Shown here one piece after another: positions 457 through 36,698 of a DNA stretch of 64,000 nt. The notes beneath the pieces were generated by a model that had not been told where the DNA came from, did not search any database, and saw only the letters and a list, made by a program, of their open reading frames with translations. Each line of letters opens with the position of its first letter. Position 1 is the stretch's first letter. The position numbers and the translations under genes were made by a program. Source of the DNA: Sycon ciliatum (Eukaryota > Porifera > Calcarea > Leucosolenida > Sycettidae); NCBI RefSeq assembly GCF_964019385.1, contig NC_088645.1, forward strand, positions 39,893,020 to 39,957,019, in the 5' to 3' direction.

Positions 457-3400
457 ATGGCCGACCAACGCTCGTGTCGACCCTGCGCCACTCCCGTTCG
501 CAATGAAACAGAGTTTATGTACTGGAAAACAGAGAAGGTGACTGAGACGAAGAGAACTATACTGTACGTGAAACGTAAGTCCGGTGGAATATCATGCGAT
601 CGAAAGGTCATAGTACGTCGACTTTATAAGGATAATATGAACAAATACACTTCCAAAGCGATAACCCACAAAGTCGAGATGAAGTCAGGCGCACAGCGCC
701 TTTTTTTGCGACCGGCGTCGGCCATTCAAACACAATTTATAAAGTTCATGTCAACAAAAAAAACACTCCAGCCTTTGGGTTACCCGTAATTATGCTGACC
801 TTCCATACAAGCTGCATTCACGCCTAAACGTCGCATAACTCGTGGTTTCAATCTCCTGCAAATACCCTTCCTAAGAGGCCCATACCCGATCGTCAATCCA
901 GTGTGTGAACCGGATTGTGGAACAGTCTCTTGGCCGAACTTCGAACCAAGGGAGAGAAGAACCAGTGGCGTGATACATTGCGCTCGCAAGACCTCCTTAT
1001 TCTCCCAGTTGAAAAACAGTTTTGGTCTGTGAAAAGATCTGGATCTTACTCCTGTTTCCTAATCTATACTACATTATCCACTCCATTCTATCTCCCTTCT
1101 GTGCCTGTTTTTTCTCCCCTTCCCATTCACTGTCTGCCCCCTCCTCGTCTAAGTCGCCTCCTGGTGAGAAGGCACCATTGCCTGTTTGGTTGAACGATTA
1201 TAAATAAAAGATACAATTGGGTGAACTCACCCATTCCAGAATACTCTGCAAATTTCCGAACCATTCCATTATATACAACGTTTCGGCCAATGGCCTTCTT
1301 CAGGTAGTCAATGATGTCCCTAAGGCTGCAAACGGGCGGTTTAAATATGTGCCTGCTCTGCCCGAAGCGCGCGATCTATTCTGCTAACGGGGAGGCAGAA
1401 AAAACCCAAAAAAGCCAGGTGTAAAGCTGGCTTGCATTGATGTCAATGATGATGTTGCGTTGGAACGGAGCACAGTACGAGCCAAGCACAAGGCAGGGAG
1501 GCGGCATATTACAGATCAGGCGCTAGGCGGAAATTCGCCATCTGCACGGATGGCAGGGCGCTGGGCAGTAGCAAGCTATGACTAGTCGACTGTGATTATG
1601 AGTCAGGTGGGAAGCAGGGAGACAGGGTGATAGGAAACAGGTGCAGAGTGACGACTGGCCCCGAGGGTCCGAAATCTGCCTGGTTTCAACACTGGGACTA
1701 TCCATCGATACAAACGATCTAAAAAAACTTGGTCGACCACTATTCCGGTGGATAAATACGATTCAGCCTGACTTGAAGGCAGCGGATCTCTATGGGGAAA
1801 GCGCTCTCCTAGCTGCAAACAATAGGCTGACTAGGCCTAACACTGTTGACACAATTATGTGTCGACCCTGCTCATGTCTAACAGGTTCAGGGAAGATGCG
1901 AGCTGTGTATATAGTTTTCTCTAACCCTCCATATCCGAGAAATCCTAGTTTAAAATTCGCAACTGCATCATACCAGTATAATGCCTCCGGTAGTTCTAGG
2001 GTTAAAACGCTTCGTTCATAGACAACATATTTGATTAAAGTGGCTATTCCTTTTTATTTAAACTCGGATACTGAATGTCTCAGCAGCCTGTCCGTTTTGG
2101 GGCATATTATCGCACTTTTTGACCGTTTATCATCTTGTTACAGTCGTGGATGGTTGCTGCATAACTAGTTCTCAATTTTTTCTTCTCTTTTTCACTAATA
2201 GCTATGAAAAGTATGAATGCCGCAGACATCGCCACGCAACATGACAATTTGTTCAAGGTTTGGTTTTGTGTGTTTCCAAAATTTCCCGACACTGTTAAAG
2301 AAAAGAAATATTCAATGAAATGCAACGACAAACATGGCGTTTCCGCAGGGCGTTATTCAGAGTATCTATCTGTTCTCTAGAGTATCTCCGCTTAAAATAT
2401 ACAAATAATCTACGTGGAGATAAAGGTTCATTGAATATTTCTTTTCTTAAACAGTGTCGGGAAATTTTGGAAACACACAAAACCAAACCTTGAACAAATT
2501 GTCATGTTGCGTGGTGATGTCTGCGGCATTCATACTTTTCATAGCTATTATTAAACTTTTATCTCCACGTAGATTCTTTGTATCTCTTTTTTACATTCAT
2601 CTTTATACTTGAGTATAATGATCTGGTTCCAAAGGTTTAATATCATTTGTGCGTCCTCTCTCCTCTCTTGCTTTCAGGGACAGAGGACGGTCAATTGTAT
2701 GCGGAGGAAGGTCCAGGTAAGTCATATCATCAAGTGCTTTCTTCTGTTCGCTGCAGAAATACATTGCAGAATAGTAAACTGGGATGTCGACGCTATTTAC
2801 TAGGCCATTCTCAACGACTTTTGACGATTTTAGCGAGGCGGTTAGTGGCTACATGTGCGATACCAACCTCAGGGCACGGTAAATGCTGTGAGCGACTTCG
2901 AGTCATCACACAGCGGTATTTGCCAGTACACACCACTAGCATGGAGCAAAATTCAGTAACGGGCATTATCGATAGCTTGAACGGCGTAACGCGGAAAACC
3001 GGCTGGGCTTGAAGTTTGTTTGAAAGAAATATTCTAATTTTCGATCCACATTCGTTTAGAAACGGGATAGCACGAGTATTTCCGCTTTCGAGTACTCGTT
3101 TCCAGGAATAGAGCGGTTTAAAAGTACGTTAATACGTCGATAGATGGTTGCGCTTATTCTGCGACACATGCCGACACTCTGTTCAAATATTAACCTTCTT
3201 GATTCTGGAACCGATCTAGTGATATGTAAATGCCTGGCCGCTTTAAACGTGTCGATCTGCGGTAGTCGTATCAGTACCGGTGTTGTGGCCTTGTAGTGTG
3301 TGATTGTATGCACATAGATGGGCACATGAAGTTGCAGCTGCACAAAACTATTTTTTCTAAACAACATTCGATATTACGAAGTAGTGGTTGCGACTTCGGC

Positions 3401-6400
3401 GATGATTTGTAAGAAAGGGTCAAGTGTCAAGTAAAGTCGGCAGAATAGCGCGAGCTCCGGTGTGGGGAGCAAACCCTTTCTTACAAATATTCGATATTAG
3501 TTGGATAAGTATAGGATATTGACCAAAATATGGTTTACATAGGAAACATAAGCTGAGTAAAAGATCGAGGTTCACCGATATTCATAATTCCCTTAGAGCC
3601 CGAAGTCGAGGTCAATATCCTATCTATTACGATTCCTTTGCCATATCCCCTTTCGGAGCTATTTTGCTCAAAAAGAGTTGGAATTCAGGAAAATGCATTG
3701 CAAATGAAAGGGGGGGGGGGCTGTGAACTGAAAACCGCTCTCTTCATTTGCTGTTCACACTTGGCGCATGCGTTGGATGAAAAATTATGTTGTTAGTGAT
3801 GTCGAAAAATGATGACGTTTCGGAACAGTCACCCATAATCATAGTCACCCTACTAAGGATTAGCAAGACGAAATTCGCGTTCGCGTTCGCAAACATTTTT
3901 CAGTTCACGAACTGGATTGCGAACTTTCGCATTTTTCGTTCGGAAAAGTAGTCGGAACACAAATCGCGGATTCGTGTCAGGGCCGTCATAAATTTACCAC
4001 GCTGTACTGTCTGTACACAATGTACGTCGCGTCAACGTCATGCATGTGCGAATTCTGTTTGCTAATCCTTCTCATAACGCGAATCCCGTCGGAGTTCAAC
4101 TTTCCTTGGAGAGCGAAGGCGAACGCGAAGTTGGTCTTGCTAATCCTCCGTAATAATAGTTACAGTTCGCATGTCACTCATGGAAGGATCCATGGGCTTA
4201 ACGCATCTGTCAATGAAATCTAGGCAGAAGAGCCAGCAAAAGGCATCTCGTTATTGTTAGAGCGTTTCGCAGTAAGAACAACTACGCAAGCGCAGCACAT
4301 TTTACCACAAGCATCAGCCATTTTTCTTGTCTAGAGCCAGTTCAAAGCAGTCACCCATGTTCAGAACAATTTACAATCAGCGAACCTGGTCTTAACGAAG
4401 GCAAGCGAGAAGGTGTGAATTTCCATGTACAGAACAAACCAAACACGGAATAGAGGTGTGAAATTGAGTGTATGATGTACAACGGAAAAGAAGAAGCGCG
4501 CTGAAAGATTGGGAATGCAAGCGTGAGATAAAGTGCAGGAAATTTGTGAACAAAAGTCTACACCGCACTCGCTAGACACCCTTAGCAAACAACGGCAACG
4601 CTATTTTTTTTACGGTACTCGTATCTTGATCACCCAAATAGCGTTGAAGCTGCAGCGTAAAAAAGTTCCGGTTTCTGATTTATCGTTGTGACCAACGGTA
4701 CGTTTTTTGGCCAAATATTGCATAATCCGTGCGCAGTTCACCTTGTATCGCGTATATGGTGACATTAATGGTTGTACCGACCGAACTAAAAGCTATTCTC
4801 GTGGCAACAGCGTACTAAACATAGCGTGCATCTTGCTAAAGGTCGAGCCCAAATCACGGTATTTTCCCCCTTACGGTAATACAGTTACAACATAACGTTG
4901 TTTGCTAAGGGTGTCTATTGTTTGTACAACCCAGTAAAGACACAGCAAGATTCAGTAGCTCCACTGAGAGGGTGCTAGCATTTTCAATGGCCATCCGAAG
5001 GAGATCCATGTATTGATCTCCGGACGACGCTCTTGAATCTCGATGATAGTCACGAAAAAACGTTCTGGAAATATCGCTTTAGCTGTAAAGCTGTATGGCA
5101 GAGGGAAATGTCTATAGTAGCAGAGTCCCATCTGAAGTCAAGAATAGTGATTCCAGTAGAAGCTGAGGACGTTGTTGAGAACTCAAACACCCTTCAGGAC
5201 CTTGTCATAGCGCCACCTATTCCTGGCAATCTAAACGTAAGGATTGAAACAATCGGAGGACAGAGGAAGTGTTTTTACTCAGAGTTTCACGCACTAAGCG
5301 ATTATCAGAAAACAGTTATGGGAAATCTGGATCAGTATTGGTTTATATACTCACAAAGCAAAGTGTAAACGTAAGGATTGTATGGGTTGGGCATCCTGCA
5401 GCCTCCTCACTCGAAAAGAAGTGGTGAGCACAAATGCTCCTTCCCTGAGCACTGCAAATTCACAACACAGTTCGTTGATTCAGTAATTCTGATGCAGTGA
5501 ATTTGCTTTGCCCAGGGACAGATCAACTGTGCTCACCACTTCTGGTTGATCTGAATGTGAAAAGTGAAATAAAGAAGTAAGCAGACGATTCAAGGGATGA
5601 TAAAGTTCTCATCGAACATGCAAGAGATACCGAATGTTGCGGTGCGACTTGGTCCCGCAACTAACCATCGTCAGGCGGACCAAAAAAACCCAGAAACTCT
5701 TTTAATCGACATTACCACTCGTTCTCAACAAGAACACCAAAGAACACACCGAACAACGATCGCCAAATCGCTGTCCTGAGCAAAACGTGCAGCGTGCGTG
5801 CATTTGGCTTGCGCTGCATGCATGCACACACCGACGTGGCATAGAGAGGAAATGCACGGTACAGAAAATGCATGAATCATCGTAGCCATAGAGATACTAA
5901 ATTTGGCGACTGCCAAAGTCCGCGTGCATGCAGCGCGGATTGCAGGTGCATGCAACGAAAAGAAAAGCAATAATTTGAATACAGAACAAGCAGAAACTAG
6001 TTACATGTACTTGCAATGTGCTGAAATGAAAGAATAAAGAATTGTTGATTACGGAGGTGAAAACAGTGTCTGTCAAGGGGTGCTTGCATCCAGCGACAGG
6101 ATGACAGCACACCCTGTCAGCGAGAGTAAGTTTCGCCAAGTAGATCGTAGCGGAGTTGCCGCGGATGGCGATAATGCAACTGATCAAGTACTAGTAAGTA
6201 CATGTACATTGCAACCAATTAGTGTGTCAACAATTCTACTTATATAATAAATTAGAACAATTCACAAGATATTCCGCTCGTGAACATGTCGTGGTACGAA
6301 CACGCATAGCAATTACTGTATCATAAAATGTGCTTCGACGTAGACGTAACAGATATGCACTCGTGATGTAATTCTAACAGACTAACAAATAATTATTACA

Positions 6401-7539
6401 CTCGCGAAATGCATAGCAGTAATACACACCGCACCAATATTGCAAGCGACCTAGCATGTCTTGACAATACTGCCCTTGCAGCATGTGACAGTTCTGTACA
6501 CAATTCGTAACTACAATACACTAATAGTATCAACGTGCAACATGTGACAACATGTGCCAATTCGAAAGGATAAATGTTCAAGAGCGCAGTCTCCTGTCCA
6601 CCGACCCAGACAACTACCAAGTGAAGAATGGAGATGATGATAATGTTGGTGTGCGTCCTCTTGATAGTGAGTAAGACAAAAAATCGCAAACCGCGGGCTA
6701 CGCGTTGGCTGAAATAGACTGGTGTTGGTGATAAACGTCCGGAAATGGAACAGAACTAATCCCTCGACGATAAGCACGAGAGCACTAGAGCATCACCCCT
6801 ATTGACCAATTGCGGGGTATACGCACCCTGTTCTTCTCTAAATAATAATGGACGAGTAAGTACCGCACCATACCCGCGACACGGACAAGGCCAACTTTAC
6901 TTCAAAGCCACTTGAGTGGCTGCTGATGAGATAGATATCTGCTGTGCTAGTCTGTAGCCATGATTCTTCCAATCCTTTTCGTATTTCGCTTACGCGTATA
7001 AGTACATTCCCTAGTACGTACACATGTATTTGTAGGCAATGTTCTTTAGCCGTGTTTCATCCAGCATTTTCGTACTGCACAGGATATAAATGTTTGTCCT
7101 TGCCGTGTTTTTTCTGATTTCAGCTCCTCCCGACTCCGGTGTTTTCGCCGTGTCGACTGCGTCTGGTCCCGAAGAAGTAAGGACCGTTTTCCAGAAGGCG
7201 ACGAGAGATTCAAAAACCAGTGATTTCCAACGTTGGCCGGATTTTGTTGGATCGCAGCTCAACAAGAATTCCCCTATCAGCGACCCTTCATGGGAGTGGA
7301 AAGTGGAAATGATGGGTTTCCCCGGTTCTCCTGAGGACGCCTTAGGCGAAACCAAATGGTACTTCATCCAGAAATCCATTTCAGGCTCGGGCGATGAGAA
7401 CGCGCAACAAAGCCGCTTCCATTCAGCGTTTGACGACTCAATCGTTCTTGCCGTCAGTAGCGTTAATGGAATGATTATCCCTCTTCCGCTAGACCAAGCG
7501 GGTGACCTTGCGACCACTTTCATATTGGAAACTGTGTGA
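457..7539 (+). CDS. Beta-trefoil cytokine-like protein 1 (IL-1/FGF-superfamily candidate), two exons
   Basis: The model joins exon 1 (457-574, 39 codons plus one base) to exon 2 (7124-7539), giving about 177 residues. The ATG at 457 has A at -3 and G at +4. Exon 1 ends in a consensus donor (AAAC|GTAAGT). Exon 2 follows a pyrimidine-rich acceptor ending TTTCAG, and both ends are phase 1. There is no signal peptide, as in leaderless IL-1 proteins. Exon 2 is a series of short beta strands ending in RFHSAFDDSIVLAVSS, then IIPLPL, then DLATTFIL. This follows the order of the last strands of IL-1 proteins: F-x-S-A, a hydrophobic strand, a P-h turn, then D-h-T-x-F. Exon 2 is about 50 percent identical by eye to the terminal exon of gene 2. 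Exon 2 being coding is fairly secure. Joining it across 6.5 kb to this exon 1 rests on phase and on the identical exon length in gene 2. Another beta-trefoil family remains possible. Confidence 0.58.
2197..2549. repeat. Long inverted repeat (foldback), 123-bp arms
   Basis: The arms at 2197-2319 and 2427-2549 are reverse complements with only about two or three mismatches, around a 107-bp loop. The repeat lies in the first intron of gene 1. No coding potential is seen in the loop. It is probably a foldback or MITE insertion. Confidence 0.85.
3403..3623. repeat. Two nested-type short inverted repeats
   Basis: A 15-bp arm around 3405-3419 pairs with 3474-3488 (CCCTTTCTTACAAAT). A second pair, ATAGGATATTGACC near 3510 and its complement near 3610-3623, lies next to it. 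A 10-base G run occurs at about 3711. These are intron sequences of gene 1 with no coding signal. Confidence 0.5.
3857..4146. mobile_element. TIR MITE, family GGATTAGCAAGACG, copy 1
   Basis: The element is about 290 bp. It begins GGATTAGCAAGACGAAATTC and ends with an imperfect inverted copy of the same end (…CTTGCTAATCC), so the TIRs are about 34 bp. A near-identical copy lies at 25241-25532. There is no transposase, so it is non-autonomous. The superfamily is not determined. Confidence 0.8.
4979..5368 (+). CDS. Orphan exon similar to the 5' exon of gene 4 (possibly a pseudogene)
   Basis: An open frame of about 130 codons runs from the stop at 4976-4978 to a TAA at 5366-5368. Its C-terminal part reads DYQKTVMGNLDQYWFIYSQS. 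This matches the end of gene 4's first exon (RYQEVTSEGRPTEYWLIVPE) in spacing and in the YQ-x-QYW/EYW core, and weaker matches extend upstream. It lies inside the predicted first intron of gene 1. The only donor near its end is GTGTAA in phase 0, whereas all terminal exons of the family accept phase 1, so it cannot splice directly to 7124. It may be a decayed relative, an alternative exon needing a further small exon, or part of another gene. Confidence 0.35.
   Translation, partial: HFQWPSEGDPCIDLRTTLLNLDDSHEKTFWKYRFSCKAVWQREMSIVAESHLKSRIVIPVEAEDVVENSNTLQDLVIAPPIPGNLNVRIETIGGQRKCFYSEFHALSDYQKTVMGNLDQYWFIYSQSKV
5417..5543. repeat. Short inverted-repeat element with 16-bp ends
   Basis: AGAAGTGGTGAGCACA at 5417-5432 is perfectly inverted at 5528-5543. 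Inner pairs (GCAAATTCA/TGAATTTGC) extend the fold. It is a 127-bp MITE-like unit within gene 1's intron. Confidence 0.65.
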
Positions 7540-7570
7540 AAAAAATGAAGCCTGTCTAAGCTCAGCTCTC

Positions 7571-7635
7571 TGTCTGTCTGTCGTCTCTCTGTATGTCTGT
7601 CTGTCTGCCTGTTTCTCTATCTGTCTGCCTGTTTC

Positions 7636-8978: not shown

Positions 8979-11900
8979 ATGGGCTGCACGCCTTCAATGT
9001 CATCTGAGGCACCGATGATTTCATGTACGCCTGAAGGAGACCCAGTGAACATGTTTGTGAAGCCCCATGGGGGGGATCCAAACCAATACATTGTCCGTGA
9101 GTATGATTTCAGGTACCTGTCTAAGTATACCTCAGCAGCTACATGTTAAATGTACGTGTAGAGCTGATTGTAGGATATTCATCTTCACCATATCTTCTAC
9201 TGGAACAAGCTAACAGCTTACGTAGCTGGAAAAATTACTTGGGCTGTGCGAGCTGATGCTTGGTACTCCTGTCTCCACTTACCGATCTGCAATTGAGCTA
9301 TGAAGGTTGCAGATTCGAACGTATACATACAAGCTCTATCAATGAGCAGAGACTGAGCTCGCTTGAATTCTTGTGATGGCCAAAATTAAGGTTAGAAAGT
9401 GCTTCATTGGATGCTGAGCACCATCTCACTATGGATGTCTCGACCATTCGCACCTCTGTGATGGAAACTACTGATTTCACGTTGCATCAACGGAGTGTAG
9501 TAATGCTCATAGGGATTATTAGGTGGCGTCCCGTGCAGTGCGAATTAGTCACTTGTTACCACAGGGCGTGTTTTCACCCCCATCGCAGGAGTGAAATGAT
9601 CGGTAGTGCTTTCCAGCCATACCTGACTCCTGCATAGATTGTTTTGCTTTGGGCGGGGGTCACTGACTGGCCTGCTGGAACTAAGTTACTTATGCAGTTG
9701 CTGTGTCATCTCCTAAATGCCACAGTAACTTTGATGCTTAGGAAGAGATTGTATTTGCAGCTCCAGCCCCTGCGGGACAGCCCACCTGCAACTGAAATCT
9801 CGGGCTTGTACAAAATCAACACCAAACCTGTTTTGTGTTTACATGTCAAGCGGGCTGGCCTGGCGAGGCGTGACTGAGGCACCCGGGATCCCTGCTAGGC
9901 GGGCCAGAGACAGCACATAGAAGCAGACTAGCCCTTGCCTGTTTACAGAGGAGTTGTATGATCATGGTGTGCACACTGTATATATTCTATATAATAATTA
10001 TCGTTTTTACTTTTTGAAGAGGATGCCCAATATTTCTCTGGTATCCATGATGTTGGATGCATGATTTTTTGTATAGGAACAATAAGGACATGACGTGGGC
10101 GTTCTGTAGTTGTTGACTTGCAATAACAATGGAAAGCGAACTACTTGAAAAAATCATTATTTTATAAGGAAAAGTAAGATGTGAAAAAGGAAGAAGAAGC
10201 GAGATAATACTAGTACCAGTACAACACACCAAGCATATGCCATAGGGCGAAAATATATCAGCAGAAAAAAAATTTGCAAGTGAAAAATGTTTTCAGCTAT
10301 AGTTAAGACATGAGTTGATTTGCAGCCCTGCGTTTCAGCCCGGGGAAGAACACTAATAATAATAACAATAACTTTATTAGGATAACCCAAAGGCAAATCG
10401 CCTATCGAGGGGTGCATCGCATTGAATGGTTGTGGTATGACAAAGCAAAGAGGCAACCATTATGCGTGTGTGTGTGTGGGGGGGGGGGGGAGTTTCGAAC
10501 TACGCACAGTGAAGGGATATTTGTATGTACTTGACCAAGGATAGGGTATACCGGTCATAGTTGCCATTACAGTACAGTAGTAGTGCGTTCGTCGCATACT
10601 CACAACGGGCTGGCGTGTGCTCTTCGCATATACATGTACATGTACTCACAACGGGCTGGCAGTCAGCTCGGCCTTGCACATGTAAACACCCTCGTCGGGC
10701 TGGCCTGCTGGCTCCAGCCCGGGCTAGAGTTGCACAGAATAATTATGCCCTTTGCAGAGCGGGTATGGGCGGGCGTTTATTTTCCGCAATATTGGCCGTT
10801 AGGCCTTTGCGAATAATGCCAGCAGAAAAATTGGCAGAATTCGGTACTTTTTCTGGTAAGTTTCATGCATATTTGGTATGTGGATAAAGAAATGGAGCTG
10901 AATTCGAGGAATTGCCCGCCATAAGGTTTGTATGGTTCTGCCAATTTTACTGCTTTTCGAGCAGAATCTGCCACCTTTTCGAGCATTATCCGCCAATGCC
11001 TATTGGCCGGTGTGTATTAACCACCATAATTATGAATCAAAGATAAGTACAGCTGCGCTGGAATTTTCGTCTTCATTCCAATTCAGTATACATTGTTGAT
11101 CAACTCATCACGCGAGCATAGTTGGATGGTCTAACACCATGATTGAGAGTACCAGGTTCAAGTCTTCCTTGGGAGCGGAATAATACAAACAATAGGGCGT
11201 TCCTCGGCTCACTGTTATTTTGGGTACTCGTGGCCTAGCAGGAGGTAAAAATGGATGCCGCGAATGGGATTTTCGGTCTTTGATCACTTTGCAGGTGGAC
11301 CTGATCTGCTCACCTCCCACCGTTTTAGGAGCTGCATCTGCGCTTGGATCCGCGAGCAGAGAAACACAATATTACAGAAAACATGCTGGAGGTGAGGGGG
11401 GGGGGGGTTAGATTACGGGGCAAAGCATGCGCAATATCTGAGAGTCACTAAGTGAACAGGGGCGGTAACAAAGTTAGGGCTTTCCTTCGTCTTTTTGCTT
11501 TGGTTCATGGCCTGTCCGTTTTCACGGTATTCCAATCTCAGGGGTAAGGCGCTTGGATGTGTTGACTTCTCTTTCAACTGCTACTGTACTAGTCCTTTCC
11601 TTGTTGGCTTGTTCGACAAAACGCACTGCGCGAGATTTTTTCAGATCTCCACAACAGCCTCAGGGATATATCCCAGGTAGTCATTCCGTGTGTATTGTGG
11701 CGAGAGATGATCCATAGCCGCAATGGTTAGGGGTTTTCAACAATGCGAAGCGTAGACAGTCATAATCACACCTTTGGTGGCACCAATAACTTAGCTTTTG
11801 TTTCACGTCAACCGCCCTTTCCCCTCCCAGCATATTTGCGTCGCCATCTCATTTCTTCCGTTGATTTGCTTTGTCTTTGTGTTATATTCTCAGGAGCCAA

Positions 11901-14020
11901 GGGCCACAGCCTTTGTGTGGGCACATATACAAGTAAGTAGTGCTTAAGTGTTTACCGTACCCGCAGCATAAACTAGATGTGGCCTCTCTACGTCTTTCCT
12001 GGACGCTAATACTAAACCTGGTGTGAGCGACCTCTGGATTTAGCGACCACCTGCTCATTACGACCATTCTTGTATGCATGGAAAGTTCTACACAGCCACT
12101 GTGGGATAGCCCTCTCCCAAAGTTGCCATCATTTTTCGCAACTTATGCTTTTCGCAACCGTGCCAAAACAAGTGCTAGTTGCTGAAATCGCATCCATATT
12201 TTCAGAAAAGTTCAAAACTTGCGAATATCGCAACTCAAACTTAATTGGAGAGTTCTTGTGCAAATCCTACAAAACAGGGAGCAGAAATAGCAGAAGTGCA
12301 GCGACAGCAAACTCGTACACCCCTTCCTGCTGTGAACCACCACTTTACACATTGCCAGTAGCCTGTTGGATGTATCTTACATGTACATCATTACAGTGCA
12401 CGGAAAAGGGAATGCACATCATTATCGTGACCACCGTTGATCTACTGTTTCTCAGAAATGAGTCTGAAGGCAGGGGAGAAATGAGCGAGCACGAGTACAT
12501 GACATTGTATGCATTTGTACAACATGTAGTCGGTGACTTGACTTTTTGACCCCATGCCAAGGGGCTAATTGCGCCTAGCTTTCGGAAAAGTTGCGAAATA
12601 GTTCCGGAAAATGAAGAAAGTTGCGAAAGTTGCGAAAAGTGGCGAGCATCTTTGGGAAAGCGCTACTTTGGGACCTTGTTCTAAAGACCATCTGGCTTTA
12701 TCGACCTCTTTTGTTGTTGTTTCGCTCGGTAGAGATCACTTACAATGTAGATTCATGATAGGTAATGGTAAACATAAGGCTTTGTTCTTCTTTTCCAGTT
12801 TCATTTTAGTGCCCCCTTTTGAACAGTTTCCGGTATGCGATGGACGTTAGTAAAAACAGTACCCCGGCTCAGGGGCACTGATCGAACGAATACCGTAAAT
12901 AACCTGTGCACTACAGTCCATTCATCGGAAACTGTCTCGCTGGCTTTTGAAAGTCCGATTTGGGCCGAATTGAGGATCAAAAACCCACTTTAAATCTCAA
13001 AAATCTGGGTTTGGGATATGCTTCTCCATACATATTGCCATGGCATACCTGTCTCAATTTTGTAAAACCTGGCTGAACTTCTATTTCCCTGTTCTTGGAC
13101 TTTTCTGGCCTCAAATGTGGCAAGGAGTAATTGCACGGGTCACACAATGCGGGATGTACTGTTGTTTTCACTATATCTACAACTATGTGCTGGAGACACC
13201 AAAAAGTTAGGGTGCCAGTTTCCAATGAATTGACTGTAATACTTTTCATCTATGGATATACTTGAGAATTGCTATCAACTGCTTGCTGATAATAGTTTCT
13301 AGATATTGTACTTGTATTGGTTACGGGAAATACAGACTGTGCCGGGAATAAGGATAAGAAAGCAGGGGCTTACGTAGTTAACTGGGATAGAGATGAATTT
13401 ACAAGTACTAGTCTGTGGCCGTGATTCTTTCAATTCTATTTTATTGGGCTCACTTGTACGTTCAGTAGTTCATTTAGTATGCATTGTTCTTTCATTGCCA
13501 CTGCTTCGTATCGCCCGGGTTTACCAGGTAATTTCGTGCAGCACAGGACAATAGGGATGTCAATTTTTATACTTTCTTTGGATTTATTCTGATTTCAGGT
13601 GGACCAATTGCCGACGGCATGTTCGCGGTGTCTACTGCATCCAAAAGTTCCAAAGAAGCAAAGATCATTTTCCAGAAGGTGACGCCGGGTTCGGACGGTT
13701 TCAAAACTTGGCCATCGCTTGCTGGATCGCAGCTTACAACGATTTCACCCATCACCGACTTGTCATGGAAGTGGGAAATAGAAATGTTAGAATTCACCAG
13801 TTCCATTTCGGACGCTTTATGCGAACCTAAAATGCACTTCATCCGGAAATGCGCCAATGGGTCTGCCGATGAGAACGGTACACAGTACCGTTTCCACTCA
13901 GCGTTTGACGACGCAATCGTACTTGCCGTCAGTAGCGATGCTGGAAGGATAATCGCTATTCCGCTAGCCCAGGCGAGTGACCTTCTGACCATTTTCACTT
14001 TGGAACGCTGTCCACATTAG
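8979..14020 (+). CDS. Beta-trefoil cytokine-like protein 2 (paralogue of gene 1), two exons
   Basis: Exon 1 (8979-9096, 39 codons plus one base, donor C|GTGAGT) joins exon 2 (13599-14020, after TTTCAG) in phase 1. The product is about 179 residues. Exon 2 is clearly homologous to exon 2 of gene 1. Shared blocks include MFAVSTAS, IIFQK, a W-x-h-E-h-E-M strand, and RFHSAFDDAIVLAVSS followed by IIAIPL and DLLTIFTLE. The last blocks resemble the C-terminal strands of IL-1 cytokines, including F-x-S-A. Exon 1 has the same length and phase as exon 1 of gene 1, although its sequence is divergent (…GGDPNQYIV near its end). No signal peptide or membrane segment is seen, so a cytosolic or unconventionally secreted protein is likely. 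The start at 8979 is the first in-frame ATG after a stop at 8955. The 4.5-kb intron could hide another small exon. Confidence 0.6.
10350..10440 (-). mobile_element. 3' end of a non-LTR retroposon
   Basis: On the minus strand the sequence ends …CCTAATAAAGTTATTGTTAT followed by ATT repeats. This is the usual form of CR1/L2-like retroposon 3' ends with microsatellite tails. No reverse transcriptase frame is attached. Confidence 0.5.
10794..11008 (+). mobile_element. MITE family TAGGC-x-TTGGCGGATAATGC, copy 1
   Basis: The ends are imperfect inverted repeats. The left end GGCCGTTAGGCCTTTGCGAA pairs with the right end CCGCCAATGCCTATTGGCC. The core contains ATTGGCAGAATTCGGTACTT and ATGGTTCTGCCAATTT, shared with the copies at 41572, 46985, 48778 and 50981. 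It is non-coding. Confidence 0.85.
11113..11190 (+). mobile_element. tRNA-derived SINE head (candidate)
   Basis: An A-box-like TAGTTGGATGGT near 11119 is followed about 36 bases later by a B-box-like GGTTCAAGTC (11155-11164). This is the spacing of a pol III tRNA-type promoter. The arms do not make a good complete cloverleaf, so I read it as a SINE or tRNA pseudogene rather than a working tRNA. Confidence 0.4.
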
Positions 14021-20771: not shown

Positions 20772-22245
20772 ATGCCTGGATCAGGGCAAGCAAGTCCCGC
20801 TCACTCACCGGCCGTGGCCAGAGCATTTCCCGACGGTGCGTGTTATAGATGGAGCAGCCGGGACCCGTTCGGCTCTTCGCCTCACTTCCTGCAGATCTTC
20901 AACCCAGCCATTAACAACAAGATGTGTCTCATGGCATTAGACAACGGCCAGGGAGGCAAGACGCTACATGCAGGAATGGGTAGGTAGTTTATTTAATTGT
21001 GTTTAGTTTTTCGGTTACTAGACTTCTTTTTCGTCTTGGTGATTGACATGGGGAAGTAGCCTAATAGGTGCGTTCGCACGCCTTTCGGCACGGGGGTATT
21101 TGTTTTGCAGTGTTATCCTTGAAAGAAGCCTTGCGGTATGGCCACCTGCTGTTGTAATCACATCATTTTGGAAGCCAACAGACTTTATGGGCCTTTACAT
21201 TGTATGATAAATTGGTAAAATGCTCAAGGAAAATCTCCGGTGCAACCACCAATCAAAGATCAATTTTCAAGTATTAGCAAAGACAGTGCTTACATGTCCA
21301 TAGGGACGCTATTGAATATGTGTTGATCATACTTCAAGTACTACGACTATAGGCAAGAAAGGTAAAGAGGAACGCTGGACAGCTCGTATTTACACTGCAA
21401 ATCCACACAGCCAATGAAAACATGTGGTAGTAGCCGAACGTTTCAGTCGATATTGCCATCTCTAGATATTTCTATAAACCTTGGGTTCTCCTATTTGAAC
21501 AACAAGAAGTGTGTAGCATACTGCGATAAGAACTGGTTCACTCACGATATATAAGAACGAATTACTAATTGCAGGAGAATACTTAGAATCTGTAGTCGAG
21601 GCACACTCCGTTCTACTTACAATGTATCGTAAAACCTAACATAATAGAGGCCTCCGGTTTTTCTTCGAAGTATATCTGTGAACAGTATACGGCTTTATCA
21701 CGGATCATCTTCCTAGAAACTAGTCCAGACCATTAGGCGGAAGGTTGCACCCTGTGTCCATGTTTCCATGACGGCTCTTCGGCGTTTCTTCTATTTCCTT
21801 TTCTGAATGTCCAGCTTTCGACAGTGGCAAAGCCTCCTTCAGTATGTACGGGAAAGATGTCACGGACCAAGTGACCACCGAGCAAGAGCAGCTGGTCTGT
21901 ATTCAGACGTATTCACTTATCACCGAACGCCAGTACTACCTCGGGATCGAGTTCGTGGTCGACGAGTCTGGTCTGATAGCGCAGACCTTCATGCGACCCC
22001 TCGAAGGCCCGCCGGGCGCGACGACGTATCGAGCCGCCCTTGCGAAGCCCGAGTTGATGTGGATCAAGCGCGAGAATGACCACGAGGTGAAACTGGGCTC
22101 AAACGCCACGTTTACGCTGCATCCGCGATTCTCGACGGACGTAGTTCTGTGTGTCAGTCACGATACGAATCGACTGTGCCTTCTGCCCACTGACAAACAA
22201 GGAGAGGCGATGACGGAGTTCTCATGGGTACCATTGAAATGCTAG
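20772..22245 (+). CDS. Beta-trefoil cytokine-like protein 3, two exons
   Basis: Exon 1 (20772-20979, 69 codons plus one base, donor G|GTAGGT) joins exon 2 (21815-22245, acceptor TGTCCAG) in phase 1, giving about 212 residues. Exon 2 begins FDSGKASFS, matching PDSGVFAVS in gene 1. It ends with LMWIKREND, FTLHPRFSTDVVLCVSHD, LCLLP and TEFSWVPLKC, in the same strand order as genes 1 and 2 but at low identity. Codons in exon 2 are GC-richer than its surroundings, as expected for coding sequence. No signal peptide or membrane segment is seen. The terminal exon is well supported. Exon 1 depends on the phase match and on its position, and the ATG at 20772 is only the most upstream in-frame candidate. 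A role as a secreted or alarm-type ligand is inference from the fold resemblance. Confidence 0.58.
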
Positions 22246-28135: not shown

Positions 28136-28314
28136 GTTGGCAAGAACATCTAAAATTTCATAGGACGTGCTGCATTTGCATTCTCTCCGCCAAAGCGGAG
28201 CGTTGAGGAGCAGAGTAGTCTACATGTGTGTTGTGTGACCGCTGCATCGTGTGGTCCGCCAAAGCGGCTGCGGTAGTTCCGCTTTCCGCCTTCGCAAAAG
28301 CGGTGCAAGCTTTT

Positions 28315-28876
28315 CATGTGTGACCGCGGCCTTACCCTCCAAATGTCCACCGCATGGACCCCGTAAGCGCTGGAAGGACTCCGCAACGTGAGACTTGATG
28401 GCTGTTGGCGTTCCTCTGGAGCAGCTTGGTGACAACGGCCAAGATCGACAGGGATGGCGGGTCACCTGCCGTGACGCTGTCGACGCTATTGTCCAGTCCC
28501 GCATGGAGTCTGTGGCGAAGCCCCTCATCTGTGGCACTTGTGCGCGCAGTTTTTGTCGGCCACAGGATATTGCGAGGCACTAGTGTAACGCTGTTCATGT
28601 GTGACCGCGGCCTTACCCTCCAAATGTCCACCGCATGGACCCCGTAAGCGCTGGAAGGACTCCGCAACGTGAGACTTGATGGCTGTTGGCGTTCCTCTGG
28701 AGCAGCTTGGTGACAACGGCCAAGATCGACAGGGATGGCGGGTCACCTGCCGTGACGCTGTCGACGCTATTGTCCAGTCCCGCATGGAGTCTGTGGCGAA
28801 GCCCCTCATCTGTGGCACTTGTGCGCGCAGTTTTCGTCGGCCACAGGATATTGCGAGGCACTAGTGTAACGCTGTT
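28315..28876 (+). repeat. 281-bp tandem duplication across a transposon/LINE junction
   Basis: Units 28315-28595 and 28596-28876 are almost identical. The one difference I see is TTTTG versus TTTTC near 28555/28836, changing Cys to Arg in the LINE zinc-finger frame. Each unit begins with the right TIR of the Harbinger-like element and then LINE sequence, so the duplication came after that insertion. Confidence 0.9.
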
Positions 28877-29029: not shown

Positions 29030-29520
29030 TGTTGGGCATCGACAAATGGTACGACTTGGCCGAGGATAGACTGGGATGGCGGGCCGCTTACACTGTTCTG
29101 CCCCCGCCCGAACCCGATTGTAGGCCTCTGCGGGTACCTTGTGCCGTGTGTGGTCGTCTCTTCTCCAGGATTGGTTTGCCTCCTCACAAATGCCTAGGTG
29201 AGCGCCGCAAACCTGTATCGGAACAGAAAGGTAGCCGACAATGTTTTGCCTGCCAGCGCTGGTTCCTTAGTTCTGGCGTTTTGGCGGTCCACAAGTGCCC
29301 CATCTCCGAGGCGCTCCCCGCGGCATCATCTCAAGCTCCATGCCGAAGTGTCCACCATTGCTGATCAGCCGACTCCTCCGCCGCTGCGTGTCCGGCTCGA
29401 TCTCTCATGTTGCAAGGCCCACTGTGGAGGTTGTGGTTGGTTCTGCCGCTCTACTCGTGGCTTTCAAATCCATAGCTGCCGGAGATGGCTCTCTCGTGGT
29501 GCCAATTGAACATGGTTCCT
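29030..29520 (+). mobile_element. LINE ORF2 C-terminal fragment with zinc-finger motifs
   Basis: The frame reads WYDLAEDRLGWRAAY, then CAVCGRLFSRIGLPPHKC, then CFACQRWFLSSGVLAVHKC, and in another frame CGGCGWFCRSTRGFQIHSC. The same order of a tryptophan-rich linker and C-x2-C…H-x3-C fingers occurs in the longer fragment at 29707-30732. It is frameshifted and has no RT. Confidence 0.7.
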
Positions 29521-29620
29521 GACCTCTTGGCAGACTGCCGACATTCTGCTGTCGCTCGTCGTTCCCTGTTGTGGGCCCCGCAAGGGGACACGTGACCGTA
29601 ATGGCAGTTTTTACCAGGAC

Positions 29621-29621
<1 letters not shown>

Positions 29622-29705
<84 letters not shown>
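29622..29705. repeat. (GT)n microsatellite, about 42 units
   Basis: A pure GT tract lies immediately upstream of the LINE C-terminal frame. It may mark the 5' truncation point. Confidence 0.97.
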
Positions 29706-29706
<1 letters not shown>

Positions 29707-29708
<2 letters not shown>

Positions 29709-30732
29709 AGTGGTAACACCAGACGGACGATGCCACACCGATGTGTCCAACCGCATAGCTGCTGCATCTAAGGCCTTTGGCAGCCTCTACTCGTCAGTTT
29801 TTCGGAACACTTCACTAACATCCAAGACTAAACAACACACGTACACATGCTGTGTGTTGTCGGTGCTGTTGTATGGGGCTGAGAACTGGACACTGTTGCG
29901 TGCCGACATACGTCGCCTTGAACAATTCCACAACCGCTGCGTTCGTGTCATTCTCGGCACCTCGCGTTCCAAACAGTGGGAGGACCACCTGTCATCTGCC
30001 TCGCTGCATAGAATGTGCGCTACAGAGCCAGTTGCTGACATGGTTGCCCGTCGACGGCTGCAGTGGCTTGGCCACATTGCCAGGATGGACGACCACCGGC
30101 TTCCAAAGGCAGTGTTGTTCTCGTGGCTCCATACTCCACGCCCTGCTCATGGCCCCAGGCGTCGATGGCGTGATGTGGTACGCGATGACCTCAAGGCGTT
30201 CGGTCTATACACCGGTTGGTACGACCTCGCAGCTGAACGTGGCGAGTGGATCCAGTCCATCTCGGATGCTATTGTTGCACGGTGCTTACGCCTTGAAACG
30301 ACAGCCAAGTCAGTGTGTTGTGCGATCTGTGAGCGACTCTTCGCCAGTGAAAGCGGACTTCGGCGGCACAAATGCAGGGAAGAGCGACTGAAGCCGATCC
30401 ATGAACAGGCCAGTGCTGTGTTGTGCGAAACGTGCCATCGTTGGTTTGCTAGCCGAGGTGGATTTGCTGTGCACAGCTGCTCTCCCAGTCTTGGTGACGC
30501 TCCAGTTCCAGAGATTGTTGCACCTCGCCCACCTGATTGCAGCCAATGTCATTACCACTGCCACACCTGTGACCGCTGTTTCCGGAGCAAAGATGGGCAC
30601 CGCCGGCACAACTGCAACTCCAACCGCAGAACATGCAGCTCTGGCTCCGAGCGCCGCACCATCCCATGCCCGACCTGCTCTCGGAAGTTCACACGTCTCC
30701 AGTACCTGGCTCAACACAAATGCAAGAAGTAA
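29707..30732 (+). mobile_element. 5'-truncated LINE ORF2 C-terminus (RT tail plus zinc fingers), open to its stop
   Basis: An intact frame of about 340 codons runs into the natural stop at 30730-30732. It begins in the thumb region after the RT catalytic core (CCVLSVLLYGAENWTLL, then IRRLEQFHNRCVRVILG and RRRLQWLGHIARMDDHRLPK). It continues through WRDVVRDDLKAFG and GWYDLAAERGEWIQSI into four or five fingers: CCAICERLF, CETCHRWFASRGGFAVHSC, CHTCDRCFRSKDGHRRHNC and CPTCSRKFTRLQYLAQHKC. The YADD catalytic core is absent, so it cannot transpose. The clean frame suggests a younger insertion than its neighbours. Confidence 0.85.
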
Positions 30733-30802
30733 CTCTGCCCTCCTTGCCTCTTTGAGGCACTGCATCACCTTTAGGTGGCAGTTTCAAGGTTTCATGGTTC
30801 AA

Positions 30803-30890
30803 GGTGTGTGCGTGTGTATGTGTGCGTGTGTATGTGTGTGTGTAAGGGTGTGTGTGTGTGTGTGTGTGTGCATGTGTTGTTGTTGTTGTT
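30803..30890. repeat. GT and TGT simple repeats
   Basis: Impure GT tract ending in TGTTGTTGTT, just 3' of the LINE stop. It could be part of the LINE tail. Confidence 0.85.
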
Positions 30891-31168
30891 TGGCTTTATT
30901 TAGAGTGGAGTTCCAAAACAAGCCTAAACCTAATGACAACGGTCCCACTGATAATACGAGAAAAGAAAAATATGTGAAAATAAGCGGACAAGCAGAACAG
31001 AGAAGAATATATTAAAGTTAGATAACCAATATGAGCACGGCAGCAGGGAAACAAATTCTGTGTGCATGTGTGTCAGACAGAATAGATAACTCGGATTCTA
31101 GGTCATGTAGGTGTCACATTCTAGCTGGCACTGATGGGGGTGCGGGGGTGCAGTACAAGTACATCTAC

Positions 31169-31219
31169 AGTATGTGTGTTTGTGTATGCGTATGTGTGTG
31201 TGTGTGTGTGTGTGTGTGG

Positions 31220-31251
<32 letters not shown>

Positions 31252-31266
31252 GTGTGCGTGTGTGTG
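31169..31266. repeat. (GT)n microsatellite
   Basis: GT repeats with scattered interruptions. Confidence 0.95.
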
Positions 31267-31459
31267 AGAGAGAATTGATGACTATGATCCTAGGTGACTG
31301 GTCATGTACATGCATGTCACAATCTAGATGCTACTGATGACAGTCCCATCACATGATTTCAGGCATCCAAAGGGATGAACATTGATACTGGTTTTACACA
31401 TTGTTGTGAATTCCAGCAGAAATCTAAGAGAGCTCGATACCGGGAAGGCAGAGCCGTGA

Positions 31460-32460
31460 CACGCTAGTCAGAACAACAGATGGCTTGATCAGTCACAACT
31501 TAAAGTTTCATGCCATCTCAGGCACTCATCAGGTGATATATCACCTGATGAGTGCCTGAGATGGCATGAAACTCTAAGTTGTGACTGATCAAGATCAGTG
31601 AATAGTTAAACCCAACACGAATGAAAAATGAGAAATGGAATAAAACAAAATTTGTAAAAAAATAAATAGATAAATAATCAAATCAAATATCAAACGAGAG
31701 AGCTTGGAAACTCAGGGCCCTACGCTATGCTTTTTTGCCTTGATGACCTAGACAAAAAAAGCATAGGGGTGTTATAAATTCATATAAATTTCTATTTTTT
31801 GTTTTTAGGCATAACCTGGGATTCGAACCCGCACTATCGCCCTGCATGCATCCCCCGATACACTTCGCATACATACTAATTCTTCCAAGTTGCTTCACGT
31901 TAATGATCTTGTATTTGAAAGCCCTATTTGAATATGCATTGTGGCCAGCCGTCTTTGATTGTACGGTACGGGACAGGTACGGTCGAGGGTAATACGACAC
32001 CATCTACCGCCTTGATGATGGCAATAAAAGCATAGGGATGTTATAAATTTTTCGATTCTCCTATTTTTTCAGGCATTACCTGGGATTCGAACTCGCACTA
32101 TCGCCCTACATATATTCCCCATACACTTCGCATTCATACTCATTCTTCCAGGTTGCTTCACGTTATGATCTTGCGTTTGAAAGCCCTATTTGAATAGTGC
32201 GGCCAGCTGTATGTGGCCAGCTGTGTTTGATGGTACGGTACGGTACGGGACAGATACGGGATAGCGCCAGGCGTGACGCAAACACACAAACACACAAACA
32301 AACACCAAATTAAAGCTGTGTGGACCCTGGCTAGCGCCAGACGTTACTGACGTAAAGTCTTCTGCATAGCTACGGGAATAAATGATCAAGATGAGTGCCT
32401 GAGATGGCATGAAACTCTAAGTTGTGACTGATCAAGCCATCTGTTGTTCTGACTAGTGTG
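31460..32460. mobile_element. DNA element with 70-bp terminal inverted repeats
   Basis: The left end (31460-31530, CACGCTAGTCAGAACAACAG…) is the reverse complement of the right end (about 32391-32460) with very few changes. Just inside the left TIR a second inverted copy of its inner half forms a palindrome at 31489-31591. The interior carries two direct repeats of about 240 bp. No transposase frame is seen. Target duplications are not clear. Confidence 0.8.
31758..32265. repeat. Two direct repeats of about 240 bp, each with a tRNA B-box-like motif
   Basis: Units 31758-31995 and about 32026-32265 share AAAAGCATAGGG, CTGGGATTCGAAC, CACTATCGCCCT, TACACTTCGCAT and TTGAAAGCCCTATTTGAAT. On the minus strand each has GGTTCGAATCCC or GAGTTCGAATCCC, which matches a pol III B box. 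No convincing A box or cloverleaf accompanies it. Confidence 0.7.
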
Positions 32461-32465
32461 ATACT

Positions 32466-32659
32466 GGTTATACATATACTCCAGCCTATGATCTTCAGGT
32501 ACATGGTCATGGATTGGGAAAGGGTGAACATGCAGTACTTTCCGATCTCGCTTTAGGTCATCACGCTAGCGAGAGAGGCGCCCCTGTTATCCTCTTCGAG
32601 GAAAACAATGTTCTGGCAGCTTGCGCTTCTGACAAACAGAGACCACCTGGCACGAGCGT
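32466..32659 (+). CDS. Possible orphan exon or gene remnant of the trefoil cluster
   Basis: An open frame without ATG runs to a TGA at 32657-32659. Its end, GAPVILFEENNVLAACASDK followed by QRPPG, can be laid against the end of gene 3's exon 1 (NNKMCLMALDNGQGG) or against the C-terminal strands of gene 3. No donor with the family's phase 1 is seen at its end. It may be chance, a pseudogene piece, or an unrecognised terminal exon. Confidence 0.2.
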
Positions 32660-33797
32660 ACGCTGATATCCGTGCCAGCCATATGTCACTGACAGGCAGC
32701 CCCCAATCCCGAAATAATTAATTCATGTATCGTGGCTGTGAGACATGCTAGCAGATGGTTACCACTTGCAGCGCTTTTCACGTGGCTACCTCTACTCACA
32801 GCTACAACTGTGTTCACTCCATTTCGGGGGTGAGACATGGGGAAGCCGTCAGACAGAGGTGTAAGCGCGCGTGTGGCGCTTGGAGTACAGCTCTAGCTCG
32901 CTTTACTCGATTCGAGTGAAGAGGACCCGTACCTTGACCTGGTGACCGGTGGCCTGAGCCATGGGGATTTTCCTTTCACATAATTATGGCGACAGTGTCA
33001 CTGTAGATCTATACAGTAGGTCTACGCACTTGAATCTACATTCTACATGACTGTCGACTCTACATGTATTCGGAAGGCAGTTGTTGCATCATCGGACAAG
33101 CTAAACATCACATGACGCCAGGATGATGCATGTGCTTGCTCATGCATATTCTCGTGTGACATGTACTGGCTGCCTTTGAGAGTGATTTCGTACCGTAGAT
33201 CTACTCCTCGGCTCAATCATCAATGAAATCCCGTCGCATCACTCAAGTGTTCGCCTCGCACCTTTTCGCAGCCCAATACTCGCAGGTCTAGGGACAGCAC
33301 TGTACATCAAGTCAGGACAACACCAGCCGTACAGTTCCTAACACTAGGTTGATCGAGGTCAACAAGACTGCCTGAAGACAACACACAATAATTCGAGCCA
33401 GGGTCCTTGGCGACCACCAAGCTCCATGGACGTTGATCTGGTGCAGGGTGCAATCTTGACTCTCATTGTCGGATTTCATGGACTAGCATTCTACTTTATA
33501 GGTTCTCATCACATCTTATACGGAATTGCTCCTTACCCATGGGCTCACTTATTTCCCAATTTTAGTTGTTCATGCATTGTGGGTGTGAAGGTTGCCCTGG
33601 TATTGTTTTGCAGCATTTTTCCCAGATAGTTCGCTACGTTCAGTATCTTAGAACTTCAAAGCTCACGCCTCTTGTTTAGCCTTTGGCGGAGTATGTTGGC
33701 ATGTTTTCTGGCATCATTTCTGGCATAATTTTCGGGTATTGTCTAAACATTATGCCCTGGCATAAAAGGACTTGTTCTTTTAGATACATGTACATAC

Positions 33798-33817
33798 GAA
33801 CACACACACACACACAC

Positions 33818-33863
<46 letters not shown>

Positions 33864-33977
33864 ACACACACACACGAACACATACATACACACACACACA
33901 CACGCACGCACACACGAACACACACACACGAACACATACATACACACACACACACACGAACTCACACACACACACGA

Positions 33978-34026
<49 letters not shown>

Positions 34027-34085
34027 AACACATACACACATACATACACACATACACATACACACAAACACACACACACATACAT
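33798..34085. repeat. (CA)n microsatellite, about 290 bp
   Basis: Mostly CA dinucleotides with ACGAACACA and ACATACATA interruptions that recur in higher-order blocks. Overlapping low-complexity frames are artefacts. Confidence 0.97.
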
Positions 34086-35003
34086 ACAGTGTAGTAATAT
34101 TGCATGTACAAACTACTGGAACTGATTTCTCTCATTCATTTTTCAGGATTGTCACATGATGGTCGATATCTTGCGTCCAACGATGAGTTACGTGTCATGG
34201 GACTGTAGTGTAGAGGTGTATGGCAGTTCCCTGATCTTTGACTTGACAGTACCCAAAACGCGCGCGTAGATCTACCAAACAGGCGACGAGAGCTGTCCTT
34301 GGTTCCCGGGAACCCAAACAGCTCGTGTTAGGTCAAGTGCGGCAACTGTATGGATCACACGCATCAAGTGCGCAAGCGACATCATACTTTTTTGGGGTAT
34401 GTAGACTACTCGCAGTCTAGCAGTGTAGTGGCTGTCTGGAACTACCAGACCTGTGCGAAATAGGTTCGTCTCGTAGACAGCAGGTCTACAGAACTCTTAC
34501 AGAGCTGTCTCGTGATATCCAACGAACAGCGTGCTAGTAGAGTCTACGTGCTGGTGCGTGGTGTATTTTGCAGAAGGAAATCGTCCCGTCTGTCAGTCGG
34601 TGGAGGGGACGCAGTCCCTGTTGACAATGACCTCAACAGCTGTTAGGCATGCTATCAGCGTGTCGCATCCTTGTACTTGTACTTGTACTAAGGACTTGCT
34701 GAAGATGCATAAACATCCATGCTTGTACTTTTGAGCAAAATTCGATCAGTGCGAGAGTACACAAAACAGAACGTGATATCTTCGCGATTCCGTCCAAACC
34801 CACCGAGACGATGCGAGGATCGAGAGAGTCTGGCTGTGATGGTATACTATAAAGTCGAATGCAGCCGAACACAAACATCACTATTGTCGTTCACGCGAGT
34901 TCGTAGAGTTCTGAACATTCTCGTCAGTGGGCTTCCTCTCCAAACATCAGTCGTTAAATCAGTTTTCCTTCGTTATTCGTGCAGTCAGCTCTCCTCTGAA
35001 AAC

Positions 35004-36698
35004 ATGGAGTGTAACCCCAGGTTGAAATGTGAGATCGAAGATGTGTTGGATCAGGATTGCACTACCCAATGGTTTCCACTGGGCATGAAACCCTTCCATC
35101 GCTGGACTATGCAGCGAACCGAACACTTCAGAGGCAAAATGCGGCAGGCTTATCGCTTAGTGATATATGGTCAAAGACAATTGCCGGCCGTCCCAGAAAG
35201 CGACGTGGACGAGAAGCAGTTTGAACCAGTTAATCCCGCACGTCAGCCGGTGAATGTGGCAGAAGGCTTCGAGTGCCCGGACGGGCAAGTGACGCCTAAG
35301 ACGATGAGATTGGTTTACCCAATGGACAGTATGGAGATAGATGTTCGGTACCAAGAGGTGACGTCAGAAGGAAGGCCGACCGAGTACTGGTTAATAGTCC
35401 CTGAAGGTAAGCAGTGCTAAGAAAGTAGACACCCTGCATAATTAGGTATAATATAATACATGTATAAATAAAAGGGGGCTAGTGTGGGCAGGCATCAGTA
35501 TAATGACGGCTTTCTGCCTAGTTATTACGCATTTTTAACAAAATAGTTTATAGGAAAGAAAAAGGAGCAAGCATCTACAAGTTACGCTGTAGCTATAACA
35601 AATTATGCTATGACTAAACAAACAGCTCATGAGATAACATTGCAGTTTTTGTTCCATGGTCCTTTTTCTTTCCTATACATTCATCCTTGGCTTTCCCTCC
35701 GAGTCAAATACTTGCACAAAAAAATGTCTACTGTTGCCGACATTGAGATCCGTTTAGAAGTCTTGCGGCCATATGGGGGCGCTGGCTGTGCAACCTTGGG
35801 CACTCCTGGTCCATTTGTATAGTGTTACAGTCAGGGAGTCGTAAAATACGTATTTTACGACTCCCTGGTTACAGTGTGTGTGATTGCGCTAAGCAAGTAA
35901 AGGCGACGGCCTATCGGATTTCAATATCCACAGGTTCAGTGGGTGACAGCTAGGCATAACTCGTATCATTGTGTCCCTATCATTGATAAAATTGCAGAAA
36001 CAACTGCGAAAGAGTTACTTCAAGACTTACCTCTTGAAACATGCTAACTGTGGGCACAAGTTATGCGATCGAGTTCACATACTAAACCAGATTTTGAACA
36101 GTCAGACGTGCACAATCTAGCACAAAATTGACGATTTCCATGTTACCATTTTTTTCCTTCGCTCACCATCTGCGTTCTCAAGATTTACGGGCAGTACTAA
36201 TGCCAGAGTTCATTCTTCTTCTTTCTATGTATTGCCTTGTATCCAGACCCTAACACGAGTCCGCTTCCCGAGTGTCTCTTCACCATATACATGTTACCAC
36301 AAGCCGTGGATGGTGAAATCCCGAACACTGTCGACGGCCTGGGTCTGGTCCTACTACAAGTCACTCCGAAAGAGCCTGGTGATAACAATCCCCAGCAGCT
36401 ATTCGTTCAGCAGCGTCGTACCCAAGAGGGGATCGCAATGGTCACGGATGTTGTGCTGACAAAATCCTCCCTTGAAGTGGCCTCCACCCAAGACGATCTG
36501 CTGTGGCTTTGGGATAATCAAAGCTCTTTCAACGGAGAGTTCTACAACACGTTCCGACCGTACGGCTGCCGAGGCAATCCACCGTGCTTTCTCTGCGTGC
36601 CATGTGACGGTGGAAATGCACGACTAAGCATCGCCCAGGATACTGAAGATTTGACTGGACTCAAGTTGAAGTACTTCAAATTCTGGTCGTCATCTTAA
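35004..36698 (+). CDS. Beta-trefoil cytokine-like protein 4, two exons
   Basis: Exon 1 (35004-35406, 134 codons plus one base, donor GAAG|GTAAGC) joins exon 2 (36247-36698, after a long pyrimidine tract and CCAG) in phase 1, giving about 284 residues. The chosen ATG (AACATGG) has A at -3 and G at +4; an upstream in-frame start at 34719 would add 95 residues without a better context. Exon 1 carries an N-terminal extension (WFPLGMKPFHRWTM…) and ends RYQEVTSEGRPTEYWLIVPE. Exon 2 holds strands such as CLFTIYMLPQ, LGLVLLQVTP and LLWLWDNQ, then PPCFLCVPCDGGNARLSI and LKLKYFKFWSSS. This is the same closing order as genes 1 to 3 and reminiscent of the W/F-x-L-C…F-x-h ending of IL-1 proteins. Exon 2 has a cysteine-rich insert (GCRGNPPCFLCVPC) absent from the others. 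No signal peptide is seen in the chosen start. Confidence 0.68.
35824..35875. mobile_element. 36-bp perfect palindrome flanked by 8-bp direct repeats
   Basis: A 36-bp perfect palindrome (35832-35867, arm CAGGGAGTCGTAAAATAC) is bounded on both sides by GTTACAGT (35824-35831 and 35868-35875). An 8-bp target duplication with CAGGG-type ends fits a hAT-superfamily insertion reduced to its two ends. It lies in the intron of gene 4. Confidence 0.65.

Follow-up and report, generated by a model that had tools for sequence, protein, structure and literature searches.

The window analysed here, the whole 64 000-nucleotide stretch C3:39893020-39957019 of a 538 Mb assembly of 313 contigs, carries four plus-strand genes (genes 1–4; Table 1) that, on balance, we assign to a tandem family of putatively leaderless β-trefoil proteins that are structurally, and probably also evolutionarily, related to the vertebrate interleukin-1 (IL-1) superfamily (PF00340; IL-1β, IL-1Ra, IL-18, IL-33, IL-36 and IL-38). 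The predicted frames are open, the gene structure is common to the family, paralogues are many (at least 16 loci, the four window genes included) and the predicted fold of two terminal exons is IL-1-like. As judged from the models, the family very probably has an IL-1-like fold; homology with IL-1 is likely, and a function as an extracellular ligand, argued by analogy, has an even chance of being correct. Because sequence homology to IL-1 is not significant, the claim rests on the fold, the order of the C-terminal elements and the gene structure.

Predicted fold and resemblance to IL-1

AlphaFold models cover the terminal exons (β4–β12 region) of gene 3, with a predicted local distance difference test score (pLDDT) of 83.3 and a predicted template-modelling score (pTM) of 0.77, and of gene 1 (pLDDT 79.4, pTM 0.73). 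Strands from the upstream exons would complete a 12-strand trefoil. In a Foldseek search with the gene 3 model, ranks 1–23 are all IL-1-family chains; the first title of another trefoil is found at rank 37, and the ricin-B/HA33 lectins and Kunitz inhibitors, which share the β-trefoil fold class, occupy ranks 37–41 by title. Among the matches listed by the VIA structure search, the IL-1 family accounts for 49 of 50 by title with gene 3 and for all 50 with gene 1, and the structural alignments displayed show 6–17% identity to IL-1-family members. The initial annotation had proposed a trefoil of the IL-1 or FGF type, to be checked by structure prediction and structural search. The IL-1 part is supported by the models, a support confined to the terminal exons of gene 3 and gene 1, with eight of the nine expected strands. 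The FGF part, which has the general trefoil fold in its favour, gained no positive match: no FGF-titled chain is among the best 50 of the longer Foldseek and VIA lists, the hhalign comparison with FGF1 is not significant and this reading was not adopted.

A profile built from 12 exons and searched against 177 635 distinct PDB sequences gave two matches at E ≤ 10, IL-36Ra (IL-1 family member 5; E = 0.64) and IL-18 (E = 0.77), with alignments that run through the C-terminal strands. Neither E-value carries weight by itself, but the IL-1 family is a small part of this set (with IL-1Ra as the query, 40 distinct sequences reach E ≤ 0.001), so that both matches are hard to ascribe to luck. Against the PDB, phmmer returned a single chance match for the gene 1 exon (E = 1.2) and none for the gene 3 protein. 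Other Pfam matches, to pYEATS (E = 0.008–0.016, below the cut-off) and Peptidase_S37 (E = 0.26), were set aside as weak.

The closing motif, read by eye as FHSAFDDSIVLAVSSVNGMIIPLPLDQAGDLATTF in gene 1 and FHSAFDDAIVLAVSSDAGRIIAIPLAQASDLLTIF in gene 2, is F-H-S-A-F-D-D-x-I-V-L-A-V, as the initial annotation had quoted it, and the C-terminal order of the two genes, F-x-S-A followed by V-L, a turn and F, is that of the IL-1 superfamily. The PROSITE IL-1 signature is F-x-S-[ASLV]-x2-P-x2-[FYLIV]-[LI]-[SCA]-T; by eye, genes 1 and 2 do not conform to it, with the P and T replaced and the F, S-A, hydrophobic position, L and A retained. No hydrophobic leader was seen by eye at the N-termini of the six complete models (genes 1–4, L005 and L022), in agreement with the leaderless state proposed initially, and leaderless synthesis is typical of IL-1, IL-18 and IL-33.

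Gene structure and extent of the family

The four gene models were predicted from the DNA and from stop-to-stop frames and spliced in frame. The cluster extends exactly over the span first assigned to it, from the ATG of gene 1 (457) to the end of the stop codon of gene 4 (36698). All six introns of the window genes are GT-AG and phase 1, and the lengths and phases of exon 1 (118 nucleotides) and exon 2 (39) are identical between genes 1 and 2. The intron before the β4 region may have a counterpart in human IL1B, in which, from the exon lengths, a phase-1 intron precedes β4. In contrast to the IL-1 superfamily, the terminal exon is unsplit (IL1B has a further intron there), genes 1 and 2 carry the mini-exon, the family comprises at least 16 loci rather than the eleven human members, and its sequences are unmatched by Pfam IL1. 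A 129-residue open frame at 4979–5368 (+), within the last intron of gene 1, has by eye a layout like that of gene 4 exon 1 and could serve as an alternative exon 1 or be a relic; it was rejected as an additional exon of gene 1, the donors seen near its end not being phase 1.

Table 1. Predicted genes of the window and their exons (positions within the window).
Feature	Position	Strand	Description
Gene 1	457-574, 2678-2716, 7124-7539	+	190 residues, predicted
Gene 1 exon 1	457..574	+	ATG; strand-like EFMYWK and RTILYVK; donor GTAAGT, phase 1
Gene 1 exon 2	2678..2716	+	39-nucleotide mini-exon TEDGQLYAEEGP; phase 1 at both ends
Gene 1 terminal exon	7124..7539	+	β4–β12 region, with stop
Gene 2	8979-9096, 11894-11932, 13599-14020	+	192 residues, predicted
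Gene 2 exon 1	8979..9096	+	118 nucleotides
Gene 2 exon 2	11894..11932	+	39-nucleotide mini-exon AKGHSLCVGTYT
Gene 2 terminal exon	13599..14020	+	With stop; 55% identical to gene 1 counterpart
Gene 3	20772-20979, 21815-22245	+	212 residues, predicted
Gene 3 exon 1	20772..20979	+	FLQIFNPAINNKMCLMALDNGQGGKTLHAGM; putative β1–β3 region; start codon is our choice
Gene 3 terminal exon	21815..22245	+	β4–β12 region, with stop
Gene 4	35004-35406, 36247-36698	+	284 residues, predicted
Gene 4 exon 1	35004..35406	+	Putative propeptide-like N-terminal extension of ~100 residues and putative β1–β3 region
Gene 4 terminal exon	36247..36698	+	Divergent; with stop; preceded by phase-1 GT-AG intron

From their sequences, genes 1 and 2 are paralogues (55% identity between terminal exons; BLASTP E = 1e-47). 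When the four sequences served as the database, gene 3 hit gene 2 with E = 1.1e-5 and gene 1 with E = 1.8e-4. No significant similarity of gene 4 to genes 1–3 was found (best E = 0.19, to gene 2). Gene 4 is linked to the others by position, strand, phase-1 intron and, by eye, strand pattern. The initial description of a four-gene tandem cluster with a shared terminal exon therefore needs adjustment on two counts: the four plus-strand models stand within a larger family, and the shared exon, supported by BLASTP for genes 1–3, is a weaker proposition for gene 4 because its sequence similarity to them is not significant. In four of the MAFFT alignments (A1, A3, A8 and A10), gene 3 or gene 4 is misaligned at its beginning; alignment A6 holds eight of the 16 loci, with gene 4 excluded, and A9 holds 12 of the 16, with genes 3 and 4 excluded.

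A tblastn search with the four proteins, covering the 100 kb that flank the window on each side (sequence that in part reads N), located three further terminal exons upstream, L001 (E = 1e-9), L002 (E = 3e-7) and L005 (E = 1.1). The last was retained despite its E-value because it is a complete three-exon gene of the same build, encoding 200 residues. Genome-wide searches used single terminal exons as queries. That of gene 3 found the distant paralogue L022 (E = 7.7e-4), L023 (0.006) and L024 (0.08); L022 in turn recovers gene 3 (E = 8.0e-4), and since each finds the other, the kinship of gene 3 is beyond chance. That of gene 1 found L030–L036 (E = 4.5e-14 to 0.012), L034 being the L001 gene again. 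The loci that are individually weak (L005; L024; L036, E = 0.012) were retained on the strength of gene structure and motifs, and the total of 16 is a lower bound because the genome searches score the best candidates only.

Twelve of the 16 loci lie on a single strand of C3 at 39.57–39.93 Mb. Outlying loci on the same contig are L036 at 34.3 Mb and L022 and L023 at 46.2–46.4 Mb. L022 (46.38 Mb) and L023 (46.24 Mb) are ~139 kb apart and nearly identical; with 99% protein identity they are, by sequence, a recent duplication. Exon 1 of L022 has an acidic serine-rich stretch. L030, at C8:9643254-9643439 (-), is a truncated terminal exon of the gene 1/2 type with 60% identity to gene 1 over 62 residues. 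A phase-1 acceptor lies directly 5′ of the strand that opens the terminal exon (GVFAVS or its equivalent) in 13 of the 16 loci: genes 1–4, L005, L001 (by eye), L022, L024, L031, L032, L033, L035 and L036. Outside this count are L002 (AG changed), L030 (truncated) and L023 (not read separately). L002 has an open terminal exon (L002:8050-8531) with the acceptor AG altered relative to the neighbouring copy L001; a simple scan upstream found no convincing mini-exon, and L002 may be a pseudogene or have a shifted acceptor. Nei–Gojobori ratios of nonsynonymous to synonymous substitution (dN/dS), computable in seven of the nine pairs tried, are 0.16–0.97, with 0.61 for genes 1 and 2; the pairs are non-independent and the ratios descriptive. 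Read at the sequence level, the frames of the family are kept yet fast-changing.

Alternative explanations and possible role

Several results weigh against kinship with IL-1. No Foldseek match to the gene 3 model was found at E ≤ 0.001, and several of the matches at ranks 1–23 have a root-mean-square deviation above 13. DSSP finds eight strands of at least three residues in each model, compared with nine expected, and the last strand is hardly formed in the gene 3 model and unformed in that of gene 1. The models cover the β4–β12 region of genes 1 and 3 only, and AlphaFold may lean on previously seen folds. Pfam IL1 has no match in eight window frames, three spliced proteins and 13 terminal exons; searched over the whole genome it again gave none, with none of 14 controls detected either. 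The E-values of the profile matches in the PDB all exceed 0.5, and a profile of eight sequences lists IL-18 second of four, after an unrelated phage capsid protein. The hhalign comparison with aligned IL-1Ra, IL-1β and IL-36Ra falls short of significance (Probab 0.42%, score 8.99); three of 100 column shuffles score above 8.99, in a null that includes two odd outliers (128 and 125) taken for script artefacts. Against single sequences the scores are 7.04 for IL-36Ra, 6.58 for FGF1, 3.27 for IL-1Ra and 3.20 for IL-1β, which places FGF1 within the range of the IL-1 family. Our confidence is tempered by the poor formation of the closing strand and by the fact that FGF1 does not score below the single IL-1 sequences. 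On the receptor side, a TIR search of the genome (one of 14 controls detected) gave two loci on C9, L037 and L038, of which L037:1462-1935 (+) is a 157-residue TIR-only frame rather than a receptor of the IL-1 type. L038 has a bit score equal to that of L037 and lies ~20 kb away on the opposite strand. No IL-1-type receptor was found in this search, which ran exon by exon with few candidates scored, so that its absence is not shown.

The non-significant Pfam and hhalign comparisons would also suit β-trefoils outside the IL-1 family, namely an independent lectin-like or protease-inhibitor-like family that converged on IL-1-like proportions, and HA33 lectins (rank 37) and a Kunitz inhibitor (rank 39) do appear lower in the Foldseek list. 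We consider such convergence unlikely, however, since chains of other trefoils come only after 23 IL-1-family chains, both PDB matches of the 12-exon profile belong to the IL-1 family and the intron before the terminal exon seems to be placed as in IL1B. It is highly improbable that the genome belongs to a jawed vertebrate and that the genes are very divergent IL-1 genes: tandem IL-1 clusters are typical of vertebrates, but Pfam IL1 matches none of the 13 terminal exons, and the mini-exon and unsplit terminal exon are unlike IL1B. A further alternative, compatible with the fold claim, is that the family is intracellular, for example nuclear or a scaffold, and not a released ligand. The lack of a visible signal peptide and the failure of the limited TIR search to turn up an IL-1-type receptor agree with this, whereas IL-1, IL-18 and IL-33 are leaderless too and a family that expands in tandem and diverges rapidly fits immune ligands; we regard an intracellular role as improbable, though not negligibly so.

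For the favoured relationship to IL-1, a mode of action can be proposed by analogy. The protein would be synthesised in the cytosol as a leaderless product, be released from cells upon damage or lytic death, bind an Ig-domain receptor and relay its signal by way of a TIR adaptor. Gene 4, with ~100 extra N-terminal residues that may be a propeptide, could encode a proform. Tandem duplication with fast divergence fits an immune or tissue-damage ligand.

The accessible text of the review PMC9020223 places no IL-1 orthologue outside vertebrates, describes IL-1R-like genes in Cnidaria, Protostomia and Deuterostomia, and mentions IL-1-like activities in echinoderms, tunicates and insects for which the molecule was never assigned. 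In the accessible text of PMC9382457, invertebrates and jawless vertebrates are described as lacking IL1, and in that of PMC12108812 invertebrates figure only for receptors and receptor domains. Among the titles and abstract openings returned by a literature search, no published report of an invertebrate IL-1 gene was found. That the host is an invertebrate with a true, tandemly expanded IL-1 superfamily of at least 16 loci, the ligands predating jawed vertebrates and being paired with the known invertebrate Ig–TIR receptors, has in our estimate somewhat less than an even chance; if true, it would overturn the view that the receptors came before the ligands. Should the host be an invertebrate, the family would be the first concrete invertebrate IL-1 candidate within the literature searched, and the origin of IL-1 could shift to before the jawed vertebrates. 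A family missed by sequence search and found by fold comparison would fill the ligand gap and provide concrete genes for testing.

Other features of the window

The DNA of the window is eukaryotic and contains kilobase introns, microsatellites and remnants that resemble retroelements; Rfam and tRNA searches of it gave no matches, and the assembly yielded no COX1. A 281 bp unit is duplicated in tandem at 28309–28870 with 99% identity. After a long GT repeat, a 376-residue open frame at 29602–30729 (+), retroelement-like by eye, is perhaps a remnant of a long interspersed nuclear element (LINE); a zf-met (C2H2 zinc finger) match is located in 29740–30729 (E = 4e-7). Self-BLAST revealed two sets of repeated protein pieces, one at 41155–41628 (-), 55212–55457 (+) and 62970–63194 (+) and the other at 47396–47632 (-), 49607–49804 (+) and 57529–57864 (+). 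The pieces of the second set may represent the second exon of tandem genes to which the first set belongs. The frame at 41155–41628 has a weak match to ATG27/mannose-6-phosphate receptor (PF09451; E = 5.6e-6, just under the cut-off).
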